64,000 nucleotides of DNA, taken from NCBI GenBank assembly GCA_000153745.1, contig DS022282.1:1510066-1574065 (forward strand), in the 5' to 3' direction. The stretch's first letter is position 1. Each line of letters starts with the position of its first letter. The notes below the pieces were generated by a model. The model was not told the origin of the DNA, searched no databases, and worked only from the letters and a program-made list of their open reading frames with translations. The position numbers and the translations under genes were made by a program. The stretch comes from Rhodobacterales bacterium HTCC2255 (GTDB lineage Bacteria; Pseudomonadota; Alphaproteobacteria; Rhodobacterales; Rhodobacteraceae). Positions 15,220 to 47,525 of this stretch are shown piece after piece.

Positions 15220-16881
15220 TTACCTCTGTTTTGTTTTCCACTTTGGATGAATCCAAGGCTTTGCATTTGACTTGGGTAGAGGCTGCTTTCCTAGAATATG
15301 ATCTGATGCTTTTTCACCAGTCATTATTGATGGTCCATTTAGATTTCCATTGGTAATTCTTGGGAAAATAGAACTATCTGCTAGTCTTAAATTTTTTACA
15401 CCTATAACTTTACATTCTGAATCGACAACAGACATTGGGTCATCAATAGATCCCATTTTGCATGTTCCACATGGATGATACGCACTTTCTACATTCTCAA
15501 GTAAAAATTCGTCTAGAGCAGAATCTGATTGTATATTTTGCCCGGGTTGGATTTCTTTCCCTGCATATTCTTTAAATGCGTCTTGACCGAAAATCTCTCG
15601 CGTAAGTTTAATACAATTTCTAAAATCAACCCAATCCTCTGATTTGCTCATGTAGTTAAATATTATTTTTGGGGCATCATTTGGATCTTTTGAGTTTAAA
15701 GTTACTGAACCTCTAGAAGTGGATCTCATTGGCCCAACATGTGCTTGAAACCCATGCCCTTCAGCAGCTGCCTGCCCATCATATCTGACGGCAATTGGTA
15801 AAAAGTGATATTGTATATCAGGATACTCTACACCTGCTTTTGAACGTATAAATGCAGCGCTTTCAAATTGATTAGATGCGCCTAAACCAGATTTTGTTAA
15901 TAGCCATTGAGCTCCAATGAGCGCTTTTGAGAAAATGTTCCAGTATCTATAAAGTGTAATTGGTTTCAATGATGCAATTTGGAGGTAAATTTCTAAGTGG
16001 TCTTGTAAATTTTGCCCTACGCCAGGCCTATCAGCTATGACTTCAATTCCATGATTTTCTAGGTGCTCTGCTGGGCCAATTCCTGATAACATTAAAAGTT
16101 TTGGTGAATTAATTGATGAGGCCGAAATTATCACTTCGCGTGTTGCATTTATAACTTGAACCTTGCCATTTATCTCTACTTCAACACCTATGGCGTGACC
16201 ATCTTTTATGATTATTTTACGTGCAAAAGCACGAATAATTTTGCAATTCTTTCGTTTTAAAGCTGTATGCAGATATGCATTTGCAGCAGACCAGCGACGC
16301 CCTTTATAAACAGTTTGCTCCATTGGTCCAAAGCCTTCTTGCTTCTCACCATTGTAATCATCAGTTGTTTCATAACCGGCTTGTTTTCCAGCTTTTACAA
16401 AAGCTTTAAACAGTGGGTTTTGTCTGGGGCCACGAGATATGTGTAGTGGACCTTTACGACCACGCCAAGATTTATCTCCTCCATGCCCACCACTTCTCCA
16501 ATTCTCCATTCTTTTAAAGTAAGGTAAAACATCTGCATAAGACCAACCTGAAGCACCAGATTGTTCCCAATAGTCATAATCTTTTGCATGCCCTCTTACA
16601 TATACCATTCCATTTATTGAAGATGATCCGCCTAGTACTTTCCCTCTTGGTGTAGCTAATCTGCGATTTTTCAAATATGGCTCAGGTTCTGATTGGAACC
16701 CCCAGTCATATGTTTTCATATTCATTGGATATGATAATGCTGCAGGCATTTGTATTAAAGGACCCATATCTGAGCCACCATATTCGATTATAATCACAGA
16801 ATTTTTTTCATCTTCTGAGAGCCTATAGGCCATAGCACAACCAGCAGAACCTGCTCCAATAATTACAAAATTAGCTTCCAT
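15220..16881 (-). CDS. betA: Choline dehydrogenase
   Basis: BetA is an FAD-dependent GMC-family oxidoreductase that oxidises choline to betaine aldehyde at the inner membrane. The 553-residue protein has the N-terminal dinucleotide fold [17 protein letters not shown], the GMC signatures [20 protein letters not shown] and [17 protein letters not shown], and the catalytic His in [12 protein letters not shown] (about residue 468) with the later NLNGPSIM Asn segment. It is the last gene of a betC-betB-betA series on the minus strand, 11 bp after betB. GMC enzymes vary in substrate, but the context makes choline the best call. Confidence 0.94.
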
Positions 16882-16892
16882 TAGTATTTTTC

Positions 16893-18350
16893 CTAATATG
16901 GTGAATCAACATTTCCCATTCGCACATAAACAGTTTTAAGCTGACTGAAATGTTCTATTGCTGCTTTAGAATTTTCACGGCCAACACCAGAACCTTTAAT
17001 GCCTCCAAAAGGAACTTCAACGGGCGCATCATTGTATGAATTAATAAAGCATGTTCCTGCTTCTAATTGATCCACAACGCGATGGGCTCTTTTGATGTCA
17101 TTAGTAAAAACTCCACCTGCTAAACCCAAATCTGTGTCGTTTGCTCTAGCAATTACTTCATCTTCATTTTCAAAGTCAAATACAGACATTACAGGACCAA
17201 AGATTTCCTCCTTAGCTATTGTCATTTCATCTGTAACATCTGAAAAAACTGTTGGCTCAATAAACCAACCACTACTTTCAATGATGTTTCCTCCAAAAGC
17301 TAGTGTTGCACCTTCTGCTTTCCCTTTTTCAATGAAACTCATAACTATATCTCTTTGTTTTTCAGAAACCATTGGTCCAAATTGTGTTTCTTCATCCATA
17401 GGATCACCAATTATAATCTTAGTGGCTCGTTCAATAAAACGTTTTAGAAAAACTTCTTTGATACTGCTTTGGACAAATACTCTAGTTCCATTCGAACAGA
17501 CTTGGCCAGTTGAATACATATTGGCTAACATTGCTCCACTAACAGCATTTTCAATATCAGCGTCATCAAAAATTATTAGAGGAGATTTACCACCAAGCTC
17601 CATGGTTACATTTTTCATGCCTAACGCTGCCGAAGAATACACTTTTTTTCCAGTTTCTGCAGAACCGGTTAGTGAAACTTTATCTACTCGTGGATCAGAA
17701 ACTAACTTAGCGCCAACGTCTCCATATCCTTGAATAACATTATATATACCTTTTGGGGCACCGGCCTCAATTAAAATTTCTGCAATTTTTAATGCGCATA
17801 ATGGTGTCATTTCGGATGGTTTAAATACCATTGAATTACCACAGGCTAATGCCGGTGCACCTTTCCAACATGCAATTTGTGTAGGATAATTCCACGCACC
17901 AATTCCTACGCATAAGCCAATTGGAATTCTTTTTGTATATGCCCAATCTTCTCCAAGTGGTATGTGTTCTCCAGTAATGGATCCGGCTAGGCCGCCAAAG
18001 TATTCTAATGCATCTGCAGCTGAGGTAGCATCAACGTATAGTGTTTCTTGTAATGGCTTACCTGTGTCATAAGTTTCCAGAACTGATAATTCACGATTGC
18101 GTTCACGAATAATATCAGAAGCTTTACGTAATATGCGCCCTCTTTCAGTCCCTGATAGTTTGGCCCAAGATTTTTGGGCATGTTTTGCTGATTCTAATGC
18201 CATTTCTATAATTTTAGGCGTTGCAGAATGTAATTTTGCAATTTTTTCACCAGTCGCTGGATAGATACATTCAATTATTTTTCCATCAGTGTCTTCTATG
18301 TACTCACCATCAATAAAGTGACTTGCTGTTGGTTGACATTTTAGTGCCAT
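16893..18350 (-). CDS. betB: Betaine aldehyde dehydrogenase
   Basis: BetB oxidises betaine aldehyde to glycine betaine with NAD(P). The 485-residue aldehyde dehydrogenase has the catalytic Glu251 ([10 protein letters not shown]) and the nucleophile Cys285 ([11 protein letters not shown]), plus the NAD-binding [10 protein letters not shown] loop at 229-238. Residues such as [18 protein letters not shown] are characteristic of BetB rather than generic ALDHs. It lies between betC and betA on one strand, with gaps of 48 and 11 bp, so the three are probably cotranscribed. Product betaine may serve as osmolyte or carbon and nitrogen source; no betaine demethylation genes are in the window. Confidence 0.95.
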
Positions 18351-18398
18351 AATTTTTTGTCTCCAGTTTATTATAAATCATGATTTTTAATAAATAAT

Positions 18399-19907
18399 CT
18401 ATTCACCCCGAGGGAATCTATTATCATTTTCTACTTCATTTAAATCCATATGATTTCTCATATAACGTTCAGACGCATCTTGTAAGGGCTGATAGTCCCA
18501 AGGGAAATAATTACCATTACGTAATGCCTCATAAACTATCCACCGCTTAGCTTGGCTTTCCCGAACATCAGTATCAAATTTATTTAAATTCCAGCGCTTT
18601 TCTGACTTAACTCGAAGTTGATTTAATGTTCCCTGATGTTTGTGAGTATTGACGAGATTAATTAATTCATTTGGATCTTCATCTAGATTGAAAAGTTGAT
18701 CTTCATCTAGCAAGCATCTGTTATATTTCCATGGTCCGTATCTCAGGGATACCATAGGGGAATAAGAGGCCTCGGCAGCATATTCCATAGCTACTGGACT
18801 TGTACGCTCTCCACCTTGCCCTAAATGGACTAGACTTTCACCTTCACACCATGGTGCTATTTCTTCAATAGATACATCAGCTAAATCACAAAGTGTTGGT
18901 GCGAGATCAATATTTGAAACTGGATAAGTGACTAGTCCTGGTTTCATTTTTGGCGAACAAACCATTAAAGGTACTCTTGCTGAACCTTCATAAAAAGACA
19001 TTTTAAACCAAAGTCCTCTCTCACCCAGCATATCCCCATGATCAGATAAAAATAGAATTGTTGCTTCTTGTTTTGTAGTCTCCAAAGCTTCTAAAATCTC
19101 GCCAATTTTATCATCAAGATAACTGATATTTGCGAAATAGGCACGCCTTGAGCGCTTTATATCATCATCAGTAATATCAAAATCCCGCCAATTATTAGCA
19201 TCAAAGATACGTTTTGAATGGGTGTCATGTTTTTCGTATTCAAATGCAGAAACAGTGGGCATTAAATGTGCACAATCTTCGTACAAATCCCAATATTTTT
19301 TTCTTGCTACATATGGATCATGTGGATGCGTAAAACTAACAGTTAAAGACCATGGCCGGTTATCTTTACCCTTAGAAAGATCATAAATTTTTCGTTTTGC
19401 ATTGTATGCCACTTCATCATCATATTCCATCTGATTAGAAATCTCAGCAATTCCTGAGCCCGTTACTGAACCCATATTATGATACCACCAATCTATTCTT
19501 TCACCTGGTTTGCGATAATCTGGTGTCCAACCAAAGTCAGCGGGATAAATATCTGTTGTTAAGCGTTCTTCAAAACCATGCATTTGATCAGGTCCAACAA
19601 AATGCATTTTTCCAGATAGACATGTTTGATACCCAGCGCGTCGCAAATGGTGGGCATAAGTGGGTATGTCTGATGAAAATTCAGCGGCATTGTCATACAC
19701 TCTTGATTTTGATGGCAACAAGCCTGACATGAATGATGCCCTGCCGGGTGCACACAAAGGAGAAGCAGTATAACAATTTTTAAATCTAGTAGATTTTCCA
19801 GCTAATTTTTTTAAATTTGGAGCGTGAAGCCAATCTGCTGGTCCATCTGGAAAAAATGTTCCATTTAATTGGTCTACCATGAAAATTAATAAATTTGGTT
19901 TTGTCAT
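18399..19907 (-). CDS. betC: Choline-sulfatase
   Basis: BetC hydrolyses choline-O-sulfate to choline and sulfate. The type I sulfatase signature CAPGRASFMSG is at residues 52-62; Cys52 is the residue that becomes formylglycine. The metal-binding N-terminus (NLLIFMVDQLNGTFFPDGP) and a C-terminal region typical of choline-sulfatases (EALRNGNYFPWDYQP) are present. I start it at 19907 (MTKPNLLIF, the family N-terminus, 502 residues); an in-frame ATG at 19934 adds nine residues without a ribosome site. It heads betC-betB-betA. Neither a betI repressor nor a choline transporter is adjacent. Confidence 0.93.
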   Translation of the reverse strand: MTKPNLLIFMVDQLNGTFFPDGPADWLHAPNLKKLAGKSTRFKNCYTASPLCAPGRASFMSGLLPSKSRVYDNAAEFSSDIPTYAHHLRRAGYQTCLSGKMHFVGPDQMHGFEERLTTDIYPADFGWTPDYRKPGERIDWWYHNMGSVTGSGIAEISNQMEYDDEVAYNAKRKIYDLSKGKDNRPWSLTVSFTHPHDPYVARKKYWDLYEDCAHLMPTVSAFEYEKHDTHSKRIFDANNWRDFDITDDDIKRSRRAYFANISYLDDKIGEILEALETTKQEATILFLSDHGDMLGERGLWFKMSFYEGSARVPLMVCSPKMKPGLVTYPVSNIDLAPTLCDLADVSIEEIAPWCEGESLVHLGQGGERTSPVAMEYAAEASYSPMVSLRYGPWKYNRCLLDEDQLFNLDEDPNELINLVNTHKHQGTLNQLRVKSEKRWNLNKFDTDVRESQAKRWIVYEALRNGNYFPWDYQPLQDASERYMRNHMDLNEVENDNRFPRGE

Positions 19908-20020
19908 TAGGGTGCCTATTAAAAAACAATTCATTTCAAAATTACTGATATAAAAGTAATATTTGTAACAATAATATTTTAATGCTTAAAAGCGACAAAA
20001 TATTTAAATTATTTATTTTT

Positions 20021-41710: not shown

Positions 41711-42498
41711 CTGTTTACTTTATAGGAGCTGGTCCAGGTGATCCTGATTTGATCACTCTTAAAGCAAAAGCGTTAATTGAAAAATGTCCTGTATGCCTGT
41801 TTGCTGGCTCACTTGTCCCTGAGGCTGTTGTTGCATGTGCTCCCATAGACGCAATTGTTAAAGATTCGGCAGTGATGACTTTGGATGAAACGCATGCAGA
41901 TATAAAAAAAGCGCATAAGAATGGACAAGACGTAGCACGCGTACACTCTGGAGATCCCTCTTTATATGGTGCAATTGCAGAGCAAATTCGTCGGCTCAAA
42001 GCTGACAACATTCCATATAAGATAATACCAGGTGTGCCAGCTTATGCTGCTATGGCTGCTGAAATGGGGCAGGAATTAACTATACCTGAAATTGCACAAT
42101 CAATTGTTTTGACTAGAATGTCTATGCAGTCAACATCTATGCCTGAAAATGAAACGTTAAATAATTTTGGTAGAACCGGAGCAACTTTAGCAATACATTT
42201 AGCGGTAAGAAATATGCGTGAAATAGAAAGACAATTAATACCACATTATGGTGAAGAATGTCCCGTTGTAGTGGGTTATCGTGTAGGTTGGCCTGATCAA
42301 TTAATTATCAGAGGAACACTGAGTAATATTCGTAAGAAAATACGAAAAGAAAAAATTACTCGAACTGCATTAATAATGGTTGGCCCTGCATTGGCATTAA
42401 GTCATGATTTTGTTGATAGTGCTCTATACGACCCAAGTATTCCCCATGTTCTTCGACCGGTTGTGGGTGTTGATTTGATCGAGGACCATAATACGTAA
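41707..42498 (+). CDS. cobM: Precorrin-4 C11-methyltransferase (CobM/CbiF)
   Basis: CobM methylates C11 of (cobalt-)precorrin-4. The 263-residue protein has VYFIGAGPGDPDLITLKA at the start, the ARVHSGDPSLYGAIAEQI loop near residue 80, KIIPGVPAYAAMAAEMGQELT and the C-terminal TALIMVGPAL. It overlaps the fusion gene by ATGA and is the last gene of the operon. CobF or CbiD, CobK, CobG/CobZ, the cobaltochelatase subunits and the amidases are not in this window. Confidence 0.95.
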   Translation: MTVYFIGAGPGDPDLITLKAKALIEKCPVCLFAGSLVPEAVVACAPIDAIVKDSAVMTLDETHADIKKAHKNGQDVARVHSGDPSLYGAIAEQIRRLKADNIPYKIIPGVPAYAAMAAEMGQELTIPEIAQSIVLTRMSMQSTSMPENETLNNFGRTGATLAIHLAVRNMREIERQLIPHYGEECPVVVGYRVGWPDQLIIRGTLSNIRKKIRKEKITRTALIMVGPALALSHDFVDSALYDPSIPHVLRPVVGVDLIEDHNT

Positions 42499-42543
42499 AT
42501 ATTAAAAAAAAGATCAAGTTTTTTAAGGAAGATATTCTAATTT

Positions 42544-42597
42544 TATTTTTAAATATGAAGATTGTACTTTATATTTAAAAATAATCGAATAATCTTC
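42544..42597. promoter_or_regulatory. Two overlapping inverted repeats between cobM and dgcN
   Basis: TATTTTTAAATAT (42544-42556) is perfectly repeated in reverse at 42571-42583. GAAGATT (42557-42563), in the loop of the first, is perfectly repeated in reverse at 42591-42597. The two pairings cannot both form, so the region could switch between them. It lies 45 bp after cobM and 90 bp before dgcN. The first repeat alone is too AT-rich for a strong terminator. Operator or attenuator functions are inference. Confidence 0.45.
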
Positions 42598-42686
42598 TAA
42601 AAAATTTCTTATAACGTTAATTTTAGCAATTTAATAAGTTTAAATTAATGGCACTAGTAATTAGTATAATAGAAGTGAGATAGATT

Positions 42687-43688
42687 ATGATTAAATCCCC
42701 TTATTTGTTGTTTCTTGGAGATGCGGCTGATGGTTTAGCTGCTAAAGTTGCTCAAGGTATTAAAGATTGGCGCCCAGATTTGAGTGTGGGTCAATATCGA
42801 ATGAATGGCTGTAATGCTGATTTAGGATTAAGTGACATGACCTTTGATCAAGCTGTTGATGCAGGTGCAAAAACACTAGTAATAGGTGTTGCAAATCGAG
42901 GAGGTGTAATTTCAGCTGAATGGAAAGCTAAATTGATTGAAGCACTAGAGGCTGGTTTGGATATCGCGTCCGGTTTACATAATTTATTAAAAGATGAGAA
43001 AGTTTTGGTTGATAAGGCTGAAGAATTAGGACGAAGTTTATTCGATGTGCGTATACCAACTGAAGCTTATCCTATTGCTTCTGGCATTAAGAGAACTGGC
43101 AAACGTTGTTTGGCTGTAGGTACAGATTGTTCTGTTGGAAAAATGTACACCGGACTGGCTATTGAAAAGGAAATGCTAAGCCGTAACATTAAGGCTACAT
43201 TTAGATCCACTGGACAAACTGGCATTTTAATCACTGGAAATGGTGTTCCACTAGATGCTGTTATTGCAGATTTTATGGCAGGTTCAGTTGAGCATTTGAC
43301 GCCTGACAATGATGAAAATCACTGGGATTTAATTGAAGGGCAAGGAAGTTTATATCACGCTTCATATTCAGGCGTAACAATGGCTTTAATTCATGGAGGC
43401 CAACCTGATGCTTTGATTTTATGTCATGAACCAACACGTGAACATATGCGTGGTCTGCCAGATTTTAAATTACCAAGTTTAGATGAATTGCGTGATACAG
43501 CACTAATTATGGCTAAAATTGTAAACCCAAATGTAAAAGTAGTCGGCATATCAGTAAATACTCAACATCTAGATGAAGTTTCAGCTAATGAATATTTAAG
43601 TTCTACAGAACAAAGAATGGGTATTCCAGCAGTAGATCCATTTCGCCATGGCGCTGCTCGTTTAGTTGATGCATTAGAGGCTTGTTGA
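42687..43688 (+). CDS. dgcN: D-glutamate N-acetyltransferase DgcN (DUF1611)
   Basis: A DUF1611 protein of 333 residues. In a marine D-glutamate pathway described for Pseudoalteromonas, the DUF1611 protein DgcN acetylates D-glutamate and DgcA then racemises the product. The N-terminal domain shows LLFLGDAADGLAAKVAQGI and IGVANRGGVISAEWK. The C-terminal P-loop-like domain has AVGTDCSVGKMYTGLAIEKE, FRSTGQTGILITGNGVPLDAV and EGQGSLYHASYSGV. The next gene, 7 bp on, is the DgcA homologue, and a D-amino-acid transaminase follows, which strongly supports this assignment over the bare DUF1611 label. Confidence 0.88.
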   Translation: MIKSPYLLFLGDAADGLAAKVAQGIKDWRPDLSVGQYRMNGCNADLGLSDMTFDQAVDAGAKTLVIGVANRGGVISAEWKAKLIEALEAGLDIASGLHNLLKDEKVLVDKAEELGRSLFDVRIPTEAYPIASGIKRTGKRCLAVGTDCSVGKMYTGLAIEKEMLSRNIKATFRSTGQTGILITGNGVPLDAVIADFMAGSVEHLTPDNDENHWDLIEGQGSLYHASYSGVTMALIHGGQPDALILCHEPTREHMRGLPDFKLPSLDELRDTALIMAKIVNPNVKVVGISVNTQHLDEVSANEYLSSTEQRMGIPAVDPFRHGAARLVDALEAC

Positions 43689-43695
43689 TTTATCA

Positions 43696-44664
43696 ATGAA
43701 AATTTCTGTCGAATTTAATAGTTTTAAGTTAGCCCAAGTTTTTACGATTTCTCGAGGTTCGCGAACTCAAGCAGATGTTTTGACTGTTGTCATCACTAGA
43801 GGTGATTACCATGGTATGGGTGAATGTGTCCCGTATTCTAGATATGGTGAAACTATGGAGACAGTTAGTCAGCAAATTGGAGAACTTCCTAAAGATTTTG
43901 ATAGAGAAACACTTCGCAATATATTACCAGCGGGCGCAGCACGAAATGCTGTTGACTGTGCTCTTTGGGATTTGGAAGCTAAGGAAGCGGGTTTGCCTGT
44001 ATGGCAATTAGCTGGATTAACTAAACCTAAAGCGATAAAAACTGCATATACTTTGTCTTTAGACAGCCCAGAAAAAATGAATGTGCAGGCAGCTAAAAAT
44101 TCATTTCGCCCACTTCTGAAAACAAAACTTGGTGGGGGAGATGATGATATTGAGAGAATTCGAGCAGTTCGAGCTGGGGCATTATCATCAAGAATTATAG
44201 TTGATGCAAATGAAGGATGGACACCAAGCCAGTATGAAAGTTTAGCACCAACTTTATTAGATCTTGGCGTTGAAATGGTTGAACAGCCTTTTCCAGCTGG
44301 TGAAGATAATGTTCTGTTAGACTTAAAAAGAATTTTACCTGTATGCGCAGATGAAAGTTGTCATGATCGAACCAGTTTAAATAATCTCGTTGGAAAATAC
44401 GATATGGTGAATATCAAATTAGATAAAACGGGCGGATTGACTGAAGCGCTTGATTTAAAACAAACAGCTTTAAAAATGGGTTTTGAAGTGATGGTTGGAT
44501 GTATGGTTGGGTCATCTTTGGCTATGGCGCCCGCAGTATTAGTTGGGCAAGAAGTTTCGGTTGTTGATCTTGATGGGCCACTTTTGCTAAGTGAAGATCG
44601 TAACCACAAATTATTTTATGATGCTGACGGAGTACATCCTGCGCAGCCAGAATTATGGGGATAG
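43696..44664 (+). CDS. dgcA: N-acetyl-D-glutamate racemase DgcA (enolase superfamily)
   Basis: A 322-residue enzyme of the muconate-lactonizing/dipeptide-epimerase branch of the enolase superfamily. The catalytic set is visible: the KTK lysine pair (LLKTKLGGG), metal ligands in IVDANEGW, MVEQPFPAGE and CADESCHD, and the second-side lysine in NIKLDKTGG. Alone it would be called an L-Ala-D/L-Glu epimerase. Placed directly after dgcN it is better read as DgcA, which interconverts N-acetyl-D- and N-acetyl-L-glutamate. It ends 2 bp before the chosen start of dat. Confidence 0.88.
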   Translation: MKISVEFNSFKLAQVFTISRGSRTQADVLTVVITRGDYHGMGECVPYSRYGETMETVSQQIGELPKDFDRETLRNILPAGAARNAVDCALWDLEAKEAGLPVWQLAGLTKPKAIKTAYTLSLDSPEKMNVQAAKNSFRPLLKTKLGGGDDDIERIRAVRAGALSSRIIVDANEGWTPSQYESLAPTLLDLGVEMVEQPFPAGEDNVLLDLKRILPVCADESCHDRTSLNNLVGKYDMVNIKLDKTGGLTEALDLKQTALKMGFEVMVGCMVGSSLAMAPAVLVGQEVSVVDLDGPLLLSEDRNHKLFYDADGVHPAQPELWG

Positions 44665-44666
44665 TT

Positions 44667-45530
44667 ATGTCAAGAATTGTATATTTAAACGGTGAATTTT
44701 TAGATGAAAATGAGGCTAAAGTTTCAATATTTGATCGAGGCTTTTTAATGGCAGATGGCGTATACGAAGTTACGTCAGTTATAAATGGAAAGTTGATTGA
44801 TTTTGATGGGCATGCTGTTCGATTAGAGCGCTCCATGAAAGAATTAATGATGGATTCAGCAATTTCTAAAGAAAATCTTTTAGAAGTTCATAGGCAACTA
44901 ATTGTGCAAAATAACTTAAACGAGGGAATGATATATTTGCAGATAACCCGTGGCTCTCCTAACGATCGTGATTTCGTATTTCCTGATCCAAAAGAAGTTA
45001 AGCCAACAATTGTGTTATTTACACAATCTAACTCCAATATGGTCCAAAATCCAAAAGCTAAGATTGGCATGAAGGTTGTATCAATTCCTGATGAACGATG
45101 GGGTCGTCGCGATATCAAAACTGTTCAATTATTATATCCATCCATGGGCAAAATGATTGCCAAGTCTCAAGGTGCGGATGATGCTTGGATGGTTGAGGAT
45201 GGAATGGTCACTGAAGGAACATCTAATAATGCTTATATTGTAAAAGATGACTCTATTATTACAAGGGAACTATCAAATGATATTTTGCACGGTATAACTC
45301 GTGCAGCTGTTTTGCGATTTGCTAATGAAGCACAAATGACTGTTGAAGAACGAAATTTTTCAATAGAAGAAGCTAAGAATGCTGACGAAGCATTCATTAC
45401 TTCAGCTTCCACATTTGTGATGCCAGTAGTTAATATTGATGGTGTTGATGTTGGAACAGGAAAGCCTGGGAAAATAGCAGCAAGACTCAGAGAAATATAT
45501 TTAGAAGAAACGCTAAAAACAGCAATATAA
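44667..45530 (+). CDS. dat: D-amino-acid aminotransferase (class IV, D-alanine type)
   Basis: This PLP enzyme transfers the amino group of D-alanine and other D-amino acids to 2-oxoglutarate, giving D-glutamate. The 287-residue fold-IV protein has VYLNGEFLDENEAKVSIFDR at the N-terminus, the PLP lysine K151 in RRDIKTVQLL, and E183 in MVTEGTSNNAYIV. The ATG at 44667, preceded by GGGGAT, gives the standard start; one at 44655 adds four residues. Branched-chain or ADC-lyase relatives look alike, but SMGKMIAKSQGADDAW and the dgcN-dgcA context favour a D-amino-acid enzyme. A terminator follows. Confidence 0.88.
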   Translation: MSRIVYLNGEFLDENEAKVSIFDRGFLMADGVYEVTSVINGKLIDFDGHAVRLERSMKELMMDSAISKENLLEVHRQLIVQNNLNEGMIYLQITRGSPNDRDFVFPDPKEVKPTIVLFTQSNSNMVQNPKAKIGMKVVSIPDERWGRRDIKTVQLLYPSMGKMIAKSQGADDAWMVEDGMVTEGTSNNAYIVKDDSIITRELSNDILHGITRAAVLRFANEAQMTVEERNFSIEEAKNADEAFITSASTFVMPVVNIDGVDVGTGKPGKIAARLREIYLEETLKTAI

Positions 45531-45540
45531 ACTCATTATT

Positions 45541-45570
45541 TGGCTGAGATATTTTTTATTCAGCCTTTTA
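45541..45570 (+). terminator. Terminator of dgcN-dgcA-dat
   Basis: GGCTGA and TCAGCC form a 6-bp stem around a 12-nt AT loop, followed by TTTT, 11 bp after the dat stop. It also lies just past the 3' end of the convergent DUF1244 gene. Confidence 0.65.
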
Positions 45571-45576
45571 GTTGCA

Positions 45577-45867
45577 TTATTTATGAGTTGCTTTGAATGA
45601 TGCTTTTTGCTCATCAGTTGCTTCAACTTGATACCTGTTTTTCCATTCGTTAAATGGCATACCATAAAATAATTCGCGTGCATTATCTTTAGAGATTGCA
45701 ATTCCTTTTGTGCCGGCTGCTTCTTGATACCATCGCGATAAACAGTTTCTACAAAAGCCTGCCAAGTTCATCATATCAATATTTTGGACATCTGTTCTTT
45801 TTGCTAGGTGATCTCTTAAAGTTCTAAATGCAGCAGCTTCGATTTCTGTTTGTGTTTGTAAGTCCAT
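45577..45867 (-). CDS. DUF1244 family protein
   Basis: A 96-residue protein of the DUF1244 family, widespread in proteobacteria. It is helical and carries the conserved MNLAGFCRNCLSRWYQEAA (a CxxC pair) and MPFNEWKNRYQ. The function is unknown; the conserved cysteines suggest metal or redox use. It is a single gene, convergent with dat and divergent from pyk (215 bp gap with no other feature I can identify). Confidence 0.85.
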   Translation of the reverse strand: MDLQTQTEIEAAAFRTLRDHLAKRTDVQNIDMMNLAGFCRNCLSRWYQEAAGTKGIAISKDNARELFYGMPFNEWKNRYQVEATDEQKASFKATHK

Positions 45868-46082
45868 AATTGATTCTTTTCGGTAAATTTTAAATGCTTA
45901 GGTATAATAGTAATACTTATTTTTGGTTTTTTTAATACTAATTTCCCAAATACATAAAAATTAATTAACATTAAATATTAGATATAATAGTTTATGGTTG
46001 TTTTTTCCATATGAGGTATTTATTTGAATGATGAAAAAACGACATAAATAAAAAAATTAAGACACTTCCAAGGGGAAATATA

Positions 46083-47525
46083 GTGAGAAGAAATCGAAAT
46101 GTTAAGATCGTTGCCACTTTAGGTCCCTCTTCAGATACATATGAGATGATCAAAACATTATTTGAAGAAGGTGTTGATGTATTTCGCTTGAATATGAGTC
46201 ACGGCACTCATAGTGAAATGCGAGATCGATATCAAATGATACGTGATATTGAGAGAGCCGTTGGAAGGCCAATTTGTATATTAGCAGATTTGCAAGGGCC
46301 AAAACTTAGATGTGGCTCATTTCTCAATGGAAAAGAAACACTAGAAGTTGGGTCGACTTTTAGATTTGATTTAAATGAAGCAGAAGGTAACCAAGATAGA
46401 GTTTGTTTACCTCACAAAGAAATATTTGCAGCTCTAAAGGTTGGGTCTACTTTACTCATAAATGATGGGAAATTGAGAGTTAAGGTTTTAGATTGTGGTA
46501 AAGATTTTGCCAATTGTGAGGTTATAGTTGGTGGTGAAATATCAAATCGTAAAGGTGTAAATGTTCCAGATGTTATTTTGCCTTTGGCGGCTTTGTCTGA
46601 AAAAGATCGAAAAGATTTAGAATTTTCATGCCAATTGGGGGTTGATTGGTTGGCTTTATCATTCGTCCAGCGCCCAGAAGATGTAGAAGAAGCACGTGTT
46701 TTGACTAATGGACGAGCTGCAATATTATCAAAAATTGAGAAGCCAGCCGCTGTTAATGCCTTCAATGAAATACTTGCTGTTTCAGATGGAATTATGGTGG
46801 CTCGAGGGGATCTCGGAGTAGAGTTACCAGTTCAAGATGTGCCGCCAATTCAAAAACGTCTTGTTACTTCGTGCCGAGATGCAGGAAAACCTGTTATTGT
46901 AGCTACTCAGATGATGGAAAGTATGATCGAAAGTCCGGTGCCTACTAGAGCTGAAGTGTCAGATGTTGCAACAGCAATTTATGAAGGTGCTGATGCGGTA
47001 ATGCTATCTGCTGAATCTGCTGCTGGTAGCTATCCAGTCGAAGCGGTGAGAACAATGAATGCTGTAGCGGTAGAGGTTGAAAAAGATCAAACATACAGAA
47101 CAGGAATAGAAGCAACAAGAAGTACTGCCCGAAGTAAAGTTGCAGACGCAATTACGGCAGCGGCACGAGAAATTGCTGAGACAACAGATGTAAAAGCAAT
47201 ATGTTGTTTTACATCCTCTGGTACTACAGCAGTCTTGGCATCTCGTGAGCGGCCAAAAGTTCCAATTATTGCTTTAACTTCACTTCCTACTGTTGCGAGA
47301 AGATTAGGTTTAGTGTGGGGTTTGCATTGTGTCGTTACTGGAGAGGTTACAAGATTTAAACATGCAGTGATTAGTGCCGCCCGAGCAGCAAGAAGTTATG
47401 AATTTGCCGAAAATAATGATAAAATAGTAGTAACTGCAGGTGTGCCGTTCAATACAGCAGGTTCTACAAATATTATTAGGGTTGCTTCAGTGGATGAAAA
47501 AATTATTACTGCATTAGAATCCTAG
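46083..47525 (+). CDS. pyk: Pyruvate kinase
   Basis: Pyruvate kinase makes ATP and pyruvate from phosphoenolpyruvate, the last step of glycolysis. The 480-residue protein shows KIVATLGPSSDTYEMIKTL, FRLNMSHGTH, the active-site segment AAILSKIEKPAAVNAFNEI with the catalytic Lys, IMVARGDLGVELP, IVATQMMESMIESPVPTRAEVSDVA and a C-terminal allosteric domain. The GTG at 46083 is preceded by AAGGGGAAA. It stands alone, with the ribosomal protein genes behind it. Confidence 0.96.
   Translation: MRRNRNVKIVATLGPSSDTYEMIKTLFEEGVDVFRLNMSHGTHSEMRDRYQMIRDIERAVGRPICILADLQGPKLRCGSFLNGKETLEVGSTFRFDLNEAEGNQDRVCLPHKEIFAALKVGSTLLINDGKLRVKVLDCGKDFANCEVIVGGEISNRKGVNVPDVILPLAALSEKDRKDLEFSCQLGVDWLALSFVQRPEDVEEARVLTNGRAAILSKIEKPAAVNAFNEILAVSDGIMVARGDLGVELPVQDVPPIQKRLVTSCRDAGKPVIVATQMMESMIESPVPTRAEVSDVATAIYEGADAVMLSAESAAGSYPVEAVRTMNAVAVEVEKDQTYRTGIEATRSTARSKVADAITAAAREIAETTDVKAICCFTSSGTTAVLASRERPKVPIIALTSLPTVARRLGLVWGLHCVVTGEVTRFKHAVISAARAARSYEFAENNDKIVVTAGVPFNTAGSTNIIRVASVDEKIITALES

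Follow-up and report, generated by a model that had tools for sequence, protein, structure and literature searches.

Coupling of a D-amino-acid transaminase gene to dgcN and dgcA in Rhodobacteraceae: a probable unit for salvage of D-amino-acid nitrogen

Introduction

Why does a gene for a D-amino-acid transaminase (DAT) directly follow the two genes of a D-glutamate pathway in a member of the Rhodobacterales, and what might the three proteins do together? The locus that raises this question lies in Rhodobacterales bacterium HTCC2255, in a stretch of 64,000 nucleotides (GenBank assembly GCA_000153745.1, contig DS022282.1, positions 1,510,066 to 1,574,065 of the forward strand) referred to here as the window. 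It consists of dgcN, dgcA and dat, which form one tight, co-directional unit on the plus strand at window positions 42687-45530, with catalytic lysines intact. A first-pass annotation had delimited this unit exactly and had interpreted it as a funnel that collects nitrogen from D-alanine and other D-amino acids as D-glutamate and passes it to the L series. Here we show that the coupling of dat with dgcN-dgcA is real and mainly a Rhodobacteraceae trait, and we argue that the three genes probably serve the salvage of D-amino-acid nitrogen into L-glutamate or arginine.

The DgcN-DgcA pathway for D-glutamate was reportedly described by Yu et al. in ISME J in 2023, in work that may already show dat adjacency. 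The pathway is named in the accessible parts of PMC10845958, PMC12363236 and PMC11747546, and those of the last contain no mention of dat adjacency. As the first-pass annotation had stated, dgcN-dgcA represents a described route; it is also widespread. Its view that the coupling with dat is the less described part also holds, in that neither the three-gene unit nor the transaminase subtype characterized below by an R-D-F motif was found described in the literature searched, most subscription papers being outside the reach of that search.

Results

The distribution of the unit was surveyed in near loci, which are the best 80 of at least 583 confirmed dgcN loci and hence close relatives, and in genomes of the family. 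All 80 near loci carry dgcA, and dat follows it on the same strand in 77, within 200 bp in 65 and at 548-962 bp in 12; four of the 80 (L050, L094, L060 and L063) are labelled as Rhizobiaceae or Desulfovibrio-type organisms. Two of the near loci lacking dat (L037 and L108) stop at a contig edge, and the third, L104 from Martelella, truly has no dat there. A dgcN match was present in 35 of 37 family genomes (partial only in G030), with dat no more than 3 kb from dgcN in 33 of these 35. In G012 (98% complete) the two genes are on different contigs, and in G008 dgcN lies near a contig end and no DAT exceeds the cut-off. These counts (77/80; 33/35) indicate that the linkage is not due to chance. 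The flanking genes differ between lineages, with cobM upstream in Amylibacter-like loci and a malyl-CoA lyase gene in Ruegeria, and thus the three genes move as one block. Outside the family, dat was adjacent in 3 of 43 loci, drawn from 103 dgcN-positive genomes, and about 8 kb away in two more; the adjacency is seen again in families f138 and f59, where the DAT is of the same subtype as in the window. Conserved adjacency, which had been proposed as a check on the funnel, was therefore found within Rhodobacteraceae and not as a rule beyond them.

The gene identities given in the first-pass annotation were upheld by curated models. DgcN (42687-43688), a D-glutamate N-acetyltransferase of the DUF1611 family, scores 546 bits against the NCBIfam equivalog NF041892 (cut-off 480), contains domains PF07755 and PF17396 and matches PDB 7xrj over its full length (E 2.7e-161); acetylation of D-glutamate with acetyl-CoA is its predicted function. 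DgcA (43696-44664), an N-acetyl-D-glutamate racemase of the enolase superfamily, scores 480 bits against equivalog NF042940 (cut-off 400) and has 4gfi as its best PDB match. Both lysines of its KxK motif, the D and N of DxN, an E, a D, a K on the second-barrel side and both D of DxD are the same in all 112 aligned rows, and we take these residues to be the two catalytic lysines and the metal ligands typical of enolase-superfamily enzymes. Dat (44667-45530) is a class IV D-amino-acid transaminase, with 377 bits against NF005209 (‘D-amino-acid transaminase’, PRK06680 subfamily; cut-off 320). Among PDB entries, D-amino-acid aminotransferases (DAATs) match it best both in sequence and in predicted fold, and the predicted structure (18-row alignment; mean predicted local distance difference test score, pLDDT, 86.7) has a DAAT-like fold with archaeal branched-chain aminotransferases close behind. 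The catalytic lysine of its RRDIK motif was kept in 92 of 92 rows compared. Identity as a branched-chain aminotransferase or an aminodeoxychorismate lyase was rejected, every listed model for these enzymes scoring under its cut-off.

The active site of Dat departs from both described DAAT patterns. The accessible part of PMC10003956 (Table 2) gives the canonical motifs as F26, Y31, V or A at 33, one of K, R, P or T at 35, YxQ at 88-90 and RxH at 98-100, and that of PMC10671532 gives the same motifs for bsDAAT; the non-canonical set in the former table is R26, F31, T or Y at 33, L or A at 35, and R or K in the 88 motif. Window Dat keeps Y31, V33, YxQ and R98 of the canonical set and differs at M26, S35 and F100, so that its carboxylate-trap motif is RDF rather than RxH. 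At the positions of the non-canonical set its residues are M, Y, V, S and YxQ.

The phenylalanine at position 100 is a constant feature of linked transaminases. It was present in 77/77 linked DATs (the window and 76 near loci), in all three linked and both near-linked (8 kb) DATs of other families and in the DAT of G012; in total, all 80 aligned linked DATs have F in place of the trap histidine. Unlinked DATs have H100 in 17/22 cases and F in 5/22 when from dgcN genomes, and H100 in 24/32 and F in 8/32 when from genomes without dgcN, in a sample that was taken from family rows and the top of a score-ranked list, may under-represent the F-type and includes some near-copies from one family. A tree of 76 DAT rows, whose bootstrap had not settled, places all 19 linked DATs used within one 22-row clade (support 99/95), together with the G012 DAT and two unlinked DATs (L214 and L216), each of these three coming from a genome with dgcN. 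Just outside it are the two near-linked DATs, which belong to a 27-row clade (100/99) where DATs from genomes without dgcN also occur. Among non-family rows, those of the 22-row clade are all from dgcN genomes (5/5), as against 22/54 of the other sampled rows (p 0.016). F100 is also found in L149, L151, L228 and L238, well outside the F-type clades; this residue has therefore arisen more than once and is no marker alone, and it is the wider signature (R-D-F, RRDIK and SNN) that marks the subtype.

We do not claim that the F-type clade is confined to dgcN genomes, as plasmid copies with the same signature stand away from dgcN. A plasmid search returned 157 records with a related DAT, of which four were examined, and R-D-F and RRDIK were present in all four. 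On plasmids of Agrobacterium pusense and Sinorhizobium meliloti (L243 and L244), the DAT gene comes after genes for a family-5 (peptide-type) ATP-binding cassette (ABC) transporter and for a serine hydrolase belonging to the beta-lactamase fold family, a gene row that is possibly a D-peptide uptake and degradation unit. The DAT of A. fabrum C58 is encoded downstream of amino-acid transporter, M20 peptidase and enolase-family genes, and that on the Ruegeria TM1040 plasmid is part of a dgc unit. These gene contexts favour a catabolic role for the DAT subtype and show that it is not tied to a position beside dgcN.

The host genome (2.30 Mb, two contigs, 99.75% complete) has the linked DAT as its only match over the family cut-off. 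It also encodes MurI, over its cut-off, and Alr; a DAT is therefore not needed here for wall D-glutamate or D-alanine, and its candidacy as the only source of either was ruled out. ArgJ is present, as are an ArgE-type M20 deacylase (acetylornithine-deacetylase type, PRK07522 over cut-off) and a distant N-formylglutamate amidohydrolase (FGase); N-acetyl-L-glutamate thus has two plausible fates. The FGase (PF05013) was considered as a linked deacylase and was not counted in the unit, the genome copy being distant (C1:1140141) and the gene lying nearer pyk than dat in 31/80 near loci. In those 31 loci an FGase-like family, identified by eye, occurs about 4.8 kb past the dgcN start, near the DUF1244 gene and pyk; in the part of the window compared with them (45577-46083) the gap at 45868-46082 is too short for an FGase and the genome's copy is elsewhere.

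Co-occurrence was examined in 387 Alphaproteobacteria of at least 90% completeness (thresholds: dgcN E<=1e-100; PRK06680-type DAT E<=1e-85; MurI E<=1e-25, at which divergent MurI may be missed). At these thresholds dgcN was detected in 108 genomes, DAT in 254 and MurI in 114. DAT was present in 103/108 genomes with dgcN and 151/279 without it, counts not corrected for shared ancestry. No association of MurI with DAT or with dgcN was seen across the class (Fisher p 0.29 and 0.54; n=387). DAT without a MurI match was found in 184 of the 387 genomes, and neither protein in 89; wall D-glutamate supply by a DAT or by MurD2/MurL-type enzymes may thus be common in Alphaproteobacteria. What is annotated as D-amino-acid transaminase in this class comprises at least two types, which may act in opposite directions within the cell.

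The three genes are closely packed. A gap of 7 bp (43689-43695) separates dgcN from dgcA. The dat open reading frame would overlap dgcA by 10 nt if started at ATG 44655, and the second ATG, at 44667, lies 2 bp past the dgcA stop with TGGGGA ahead of it; the latter is the likelier start, judged from these features, and fits the 2 bp spacing noted in the first-pass annotation. Upstream of dgcN is an AT-rich intergenic stretch of 188 bp (42499-42686, plus strand), the presumed promoter region of the unit, in which no convincing consensus promoter or terminator was found. A scan of 42400-45950 gave 8 promoter-like sites compared with 12.9 in shuffled sequences and 1 terminator-like site compared with 2.2, neither being above the shuffles.

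The unit is preceded by the cobalamin gene cobM; on its other side lie a DUF1244 gene in convergent orientation and, beyond it, pyk, which was identified from position and sequence. With these neighbours no regulator or transporter adjoins it, which the first-pass annotation had counted among the less described features; this turned out to be usual in near relatives too. A LysE-type exporter occurs in 12/80 near loci and an AsnC-type regulator in 10/80, about 2.5-3 kb upstream, these genes being named by eye and from an annotated Ruegeria record. The dgcN of a relative, G027, is 94% identical to that of the window, and the closest dgcN among named records (a set in which those most similar to the window may be missing) is 92% identical and comes from an uncultured Amylibacter metagenome-assembled genome. 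Elsewhere in the window, at 15220-19934 on the minus strand, GMC oxidoreductase, aldehyde dehydrogenase and choline-sulfatase-type genes stand in series, likely a set for conversion of choline sulfate to glycine betaine.

Discussion

We consider it probable that dgcN, dgcA and dat act together in cytoplasmic salvage of D-amino acids, which would be mainly peptidoglycan-derived. DAT would transfer the amino group of D-alanine or other D-amino acids to 2-oxoglutarate, yielding pyruvate (or another 2-oxo acid) and D-glutamate; DgcN would convert D-glutamate and acetyl-CoA to N-acetyl-D-glutamate, and DgcA would racemize this to N-acetyl-L-glutamate. The product could then enter arginine synthesis or be converted to L-glutamate by the ArgE-type M20 enzyme encoded elsewhere, while acetylation would draw the reversible transamination toward D-glutamate. 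What the sequence shows is which genes are present, that their catalytic residues are intact, that their linkage is conserved and that the genome has ArgJ and the ArgE-type gene; flux direction, substrate range, co-transcription and the source of the D-amino acids are inferred. According to the accessible parts of the sources, D-Glu, D-Ala, D-Ser, D-Phe and D-Lys all support growth of a Rhodobacteraceae strain that has genes for DAT, DgcN and DgcA (PMC11747546), Rhodobacterales are mostly without AmpG, and A. tumefaciens, which is without Mpl, may break wall peptides down to amino acids (PMC9790009). Such a breakdown to amino acids would supply the dgcN-dgcA-dat unit.

Several observations weigh against this interpretation. 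Dat falls short of the stricter D_amino_aminoT equivalog TIGR01121 (240 bits; cut-off 277). Because its active site departs from those of canonical DAATs (M for F26, S for K35 and F for H100), acceptance of D-alanine or 2-oxoglutarate is not assured, and no biochemical characterization of a DAT of the R-D-F type was found in the literature searched. The linkage has been lost in Martelella locus L104 and in G012 and is infrequent beyond the family (3/43), and the co-occurrence of dgcN and DAT is partly due to shared ancestry. Finally, the genome encodes three DadA-like flavin adenine dinucleotide (FAD) proteins (150-211 bits against a curated cut-off of 383; 10 of 17 near-full-length DAO-family proteins were scanned), which could oxidize D-amino acids instead. 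The earlier statement that the route does without a D-amino-acid oxidase is thus correct only for the locus, the genome having these three candidates, all under the curated cut-off. The idea of a funnel fits the gene identities and the linkage. The RDF trap is non-standard, and the many other Alphaproteobacteria with a DAT of the same family and no detected MurI keep a D-glutamate-making role for peptidoglycan live.

That role is the core of the main rival explanation, homeostasis of wall D-glutamate, in which DAT is a second supply beside MurI and DgcN-DgcA drains the surplus to L-glutamate as a make-and-drain valve and not a nutrient funnel. D-amino-acid aminotransferases are an established source of D-glutamate (PMC8788868, in the part available), and the 184 genomes with DAT family members and no detected MurI are consistent with such a supply. 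Among 23 family genomes, no MurI match was found in G012, nor in the less complete G008 and G013, and in G007 MurI occurs only as fragments with in-frame stops (contigs C78 and C24), through either decay or assembly error; G007 and G012 both carry DAT and dgcN. In a further locus (L163; G325:C2:72000-84000), an Asp/Glu-racemase-family gene (PF01177; 7374-8255) takes the place of dat directly after dgcN-dgcA, and its product scores 139 bits with the MurI model, under the cut-off of 146.65. We nevertheless regard homeostasis as unlikely: the host genome has MurI over its cut-off, relatives of the linked DAT type adjoin import genes on two rhizobial plasmids, and outside the family genomes with a DAT of the F-core clade have MurI more often than those with other DATs (7/10 compared with 13/47 genomes; Fisher p 0.024, in a score-ranked sample and with no phylogenetic correction).

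A second rival holds that DgcA is mainly an L-Ala-D/L-Glu (murein dipeptide) epimerase, such that the unit handles murein peptides and acetylation of freed D-glutamate by DgcN is a side step. DgcA is indeed kin to these epimerases (PRK15129, 298 bits, under the cut-off of 343; PDB 1jpd, E 2.3e-71), and both aspartates of its D-L-D motif, which presumably binds the dipeptide ammonium group, are present in 112/112 rows. However, the epimerase equivalog models fail for DgcA and its own equivalog clearly passes, and dgcA lies no more than 150 bp from dgcN in 42/44 diverse loci, making this explanation improbable. The view that dat is an unrelated passenger whose adjacency was inherited within one family would fit a linkage found mainly in Rhodobacteraceae, but has little chance of being right given that gene order persists between differing flanks and that the pair recurs with the same DAT subtype in f138 and f59.

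If the salvage interpretation is correct, roseobacters, which are major marine heterotrophs, would be able to turn D-amino acids from dissolved peptidoglycan into L-glutamate, and the transaminase would widen the D-glutamate pathway to D-alanine and others. More tentatively, and with the balance of probability tilted against so broad a proposal, the dgc-linked DAT may be a distinct subfamily of D-amino-acid transaminases in which the carboxylate trap has been rebuilt, specialized for D-amino-acid catabolism and feeding D-glutamate to DgcN; with DgcN-DgcA it would form a metabolic exit of peptidoglycan recycling in Rhodobacterales, and the same type would have been recruited into rhizobial peptide-uptake sets. 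A DAT subtype without the trap histidine offers a direct test of D-substrate binding in fold-type-IV transaminases.

The locus can be set beside three known systems. It shares with the DgcN-DgcA pathway both enzymes, adjacent and over their equivalog cut-offs, and a setting in marine Rhodobacterales, and differs in adding a linked DAT and in having no adjacent regulator. DgcR is said to be the regulator of the Pseudoalteromonas dgc model; no regulator adjoins the window locus in the manner of a published dgc locus with adjacent DgcR, which was not searched for genome-wide. The rhizobial plasmid sets of A. pusense and S. meliloti have the same DAT subtype, with R-D-F and RRDIK, whereas they possess their own transporter and a LysR-type regulator, and no dgcN or dgcA is annotated in their 7-kb flanks, where annotation is incomplete. 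With the DAAT of Bacillus sp. (PDB 1daa/3lqs), window Dat has in common the fold, the catalytic lysine, Y31, V33, YxQ and R98, and it differs in having F for H100, M for F26, S for K35 and R for the C that precedes DIK.

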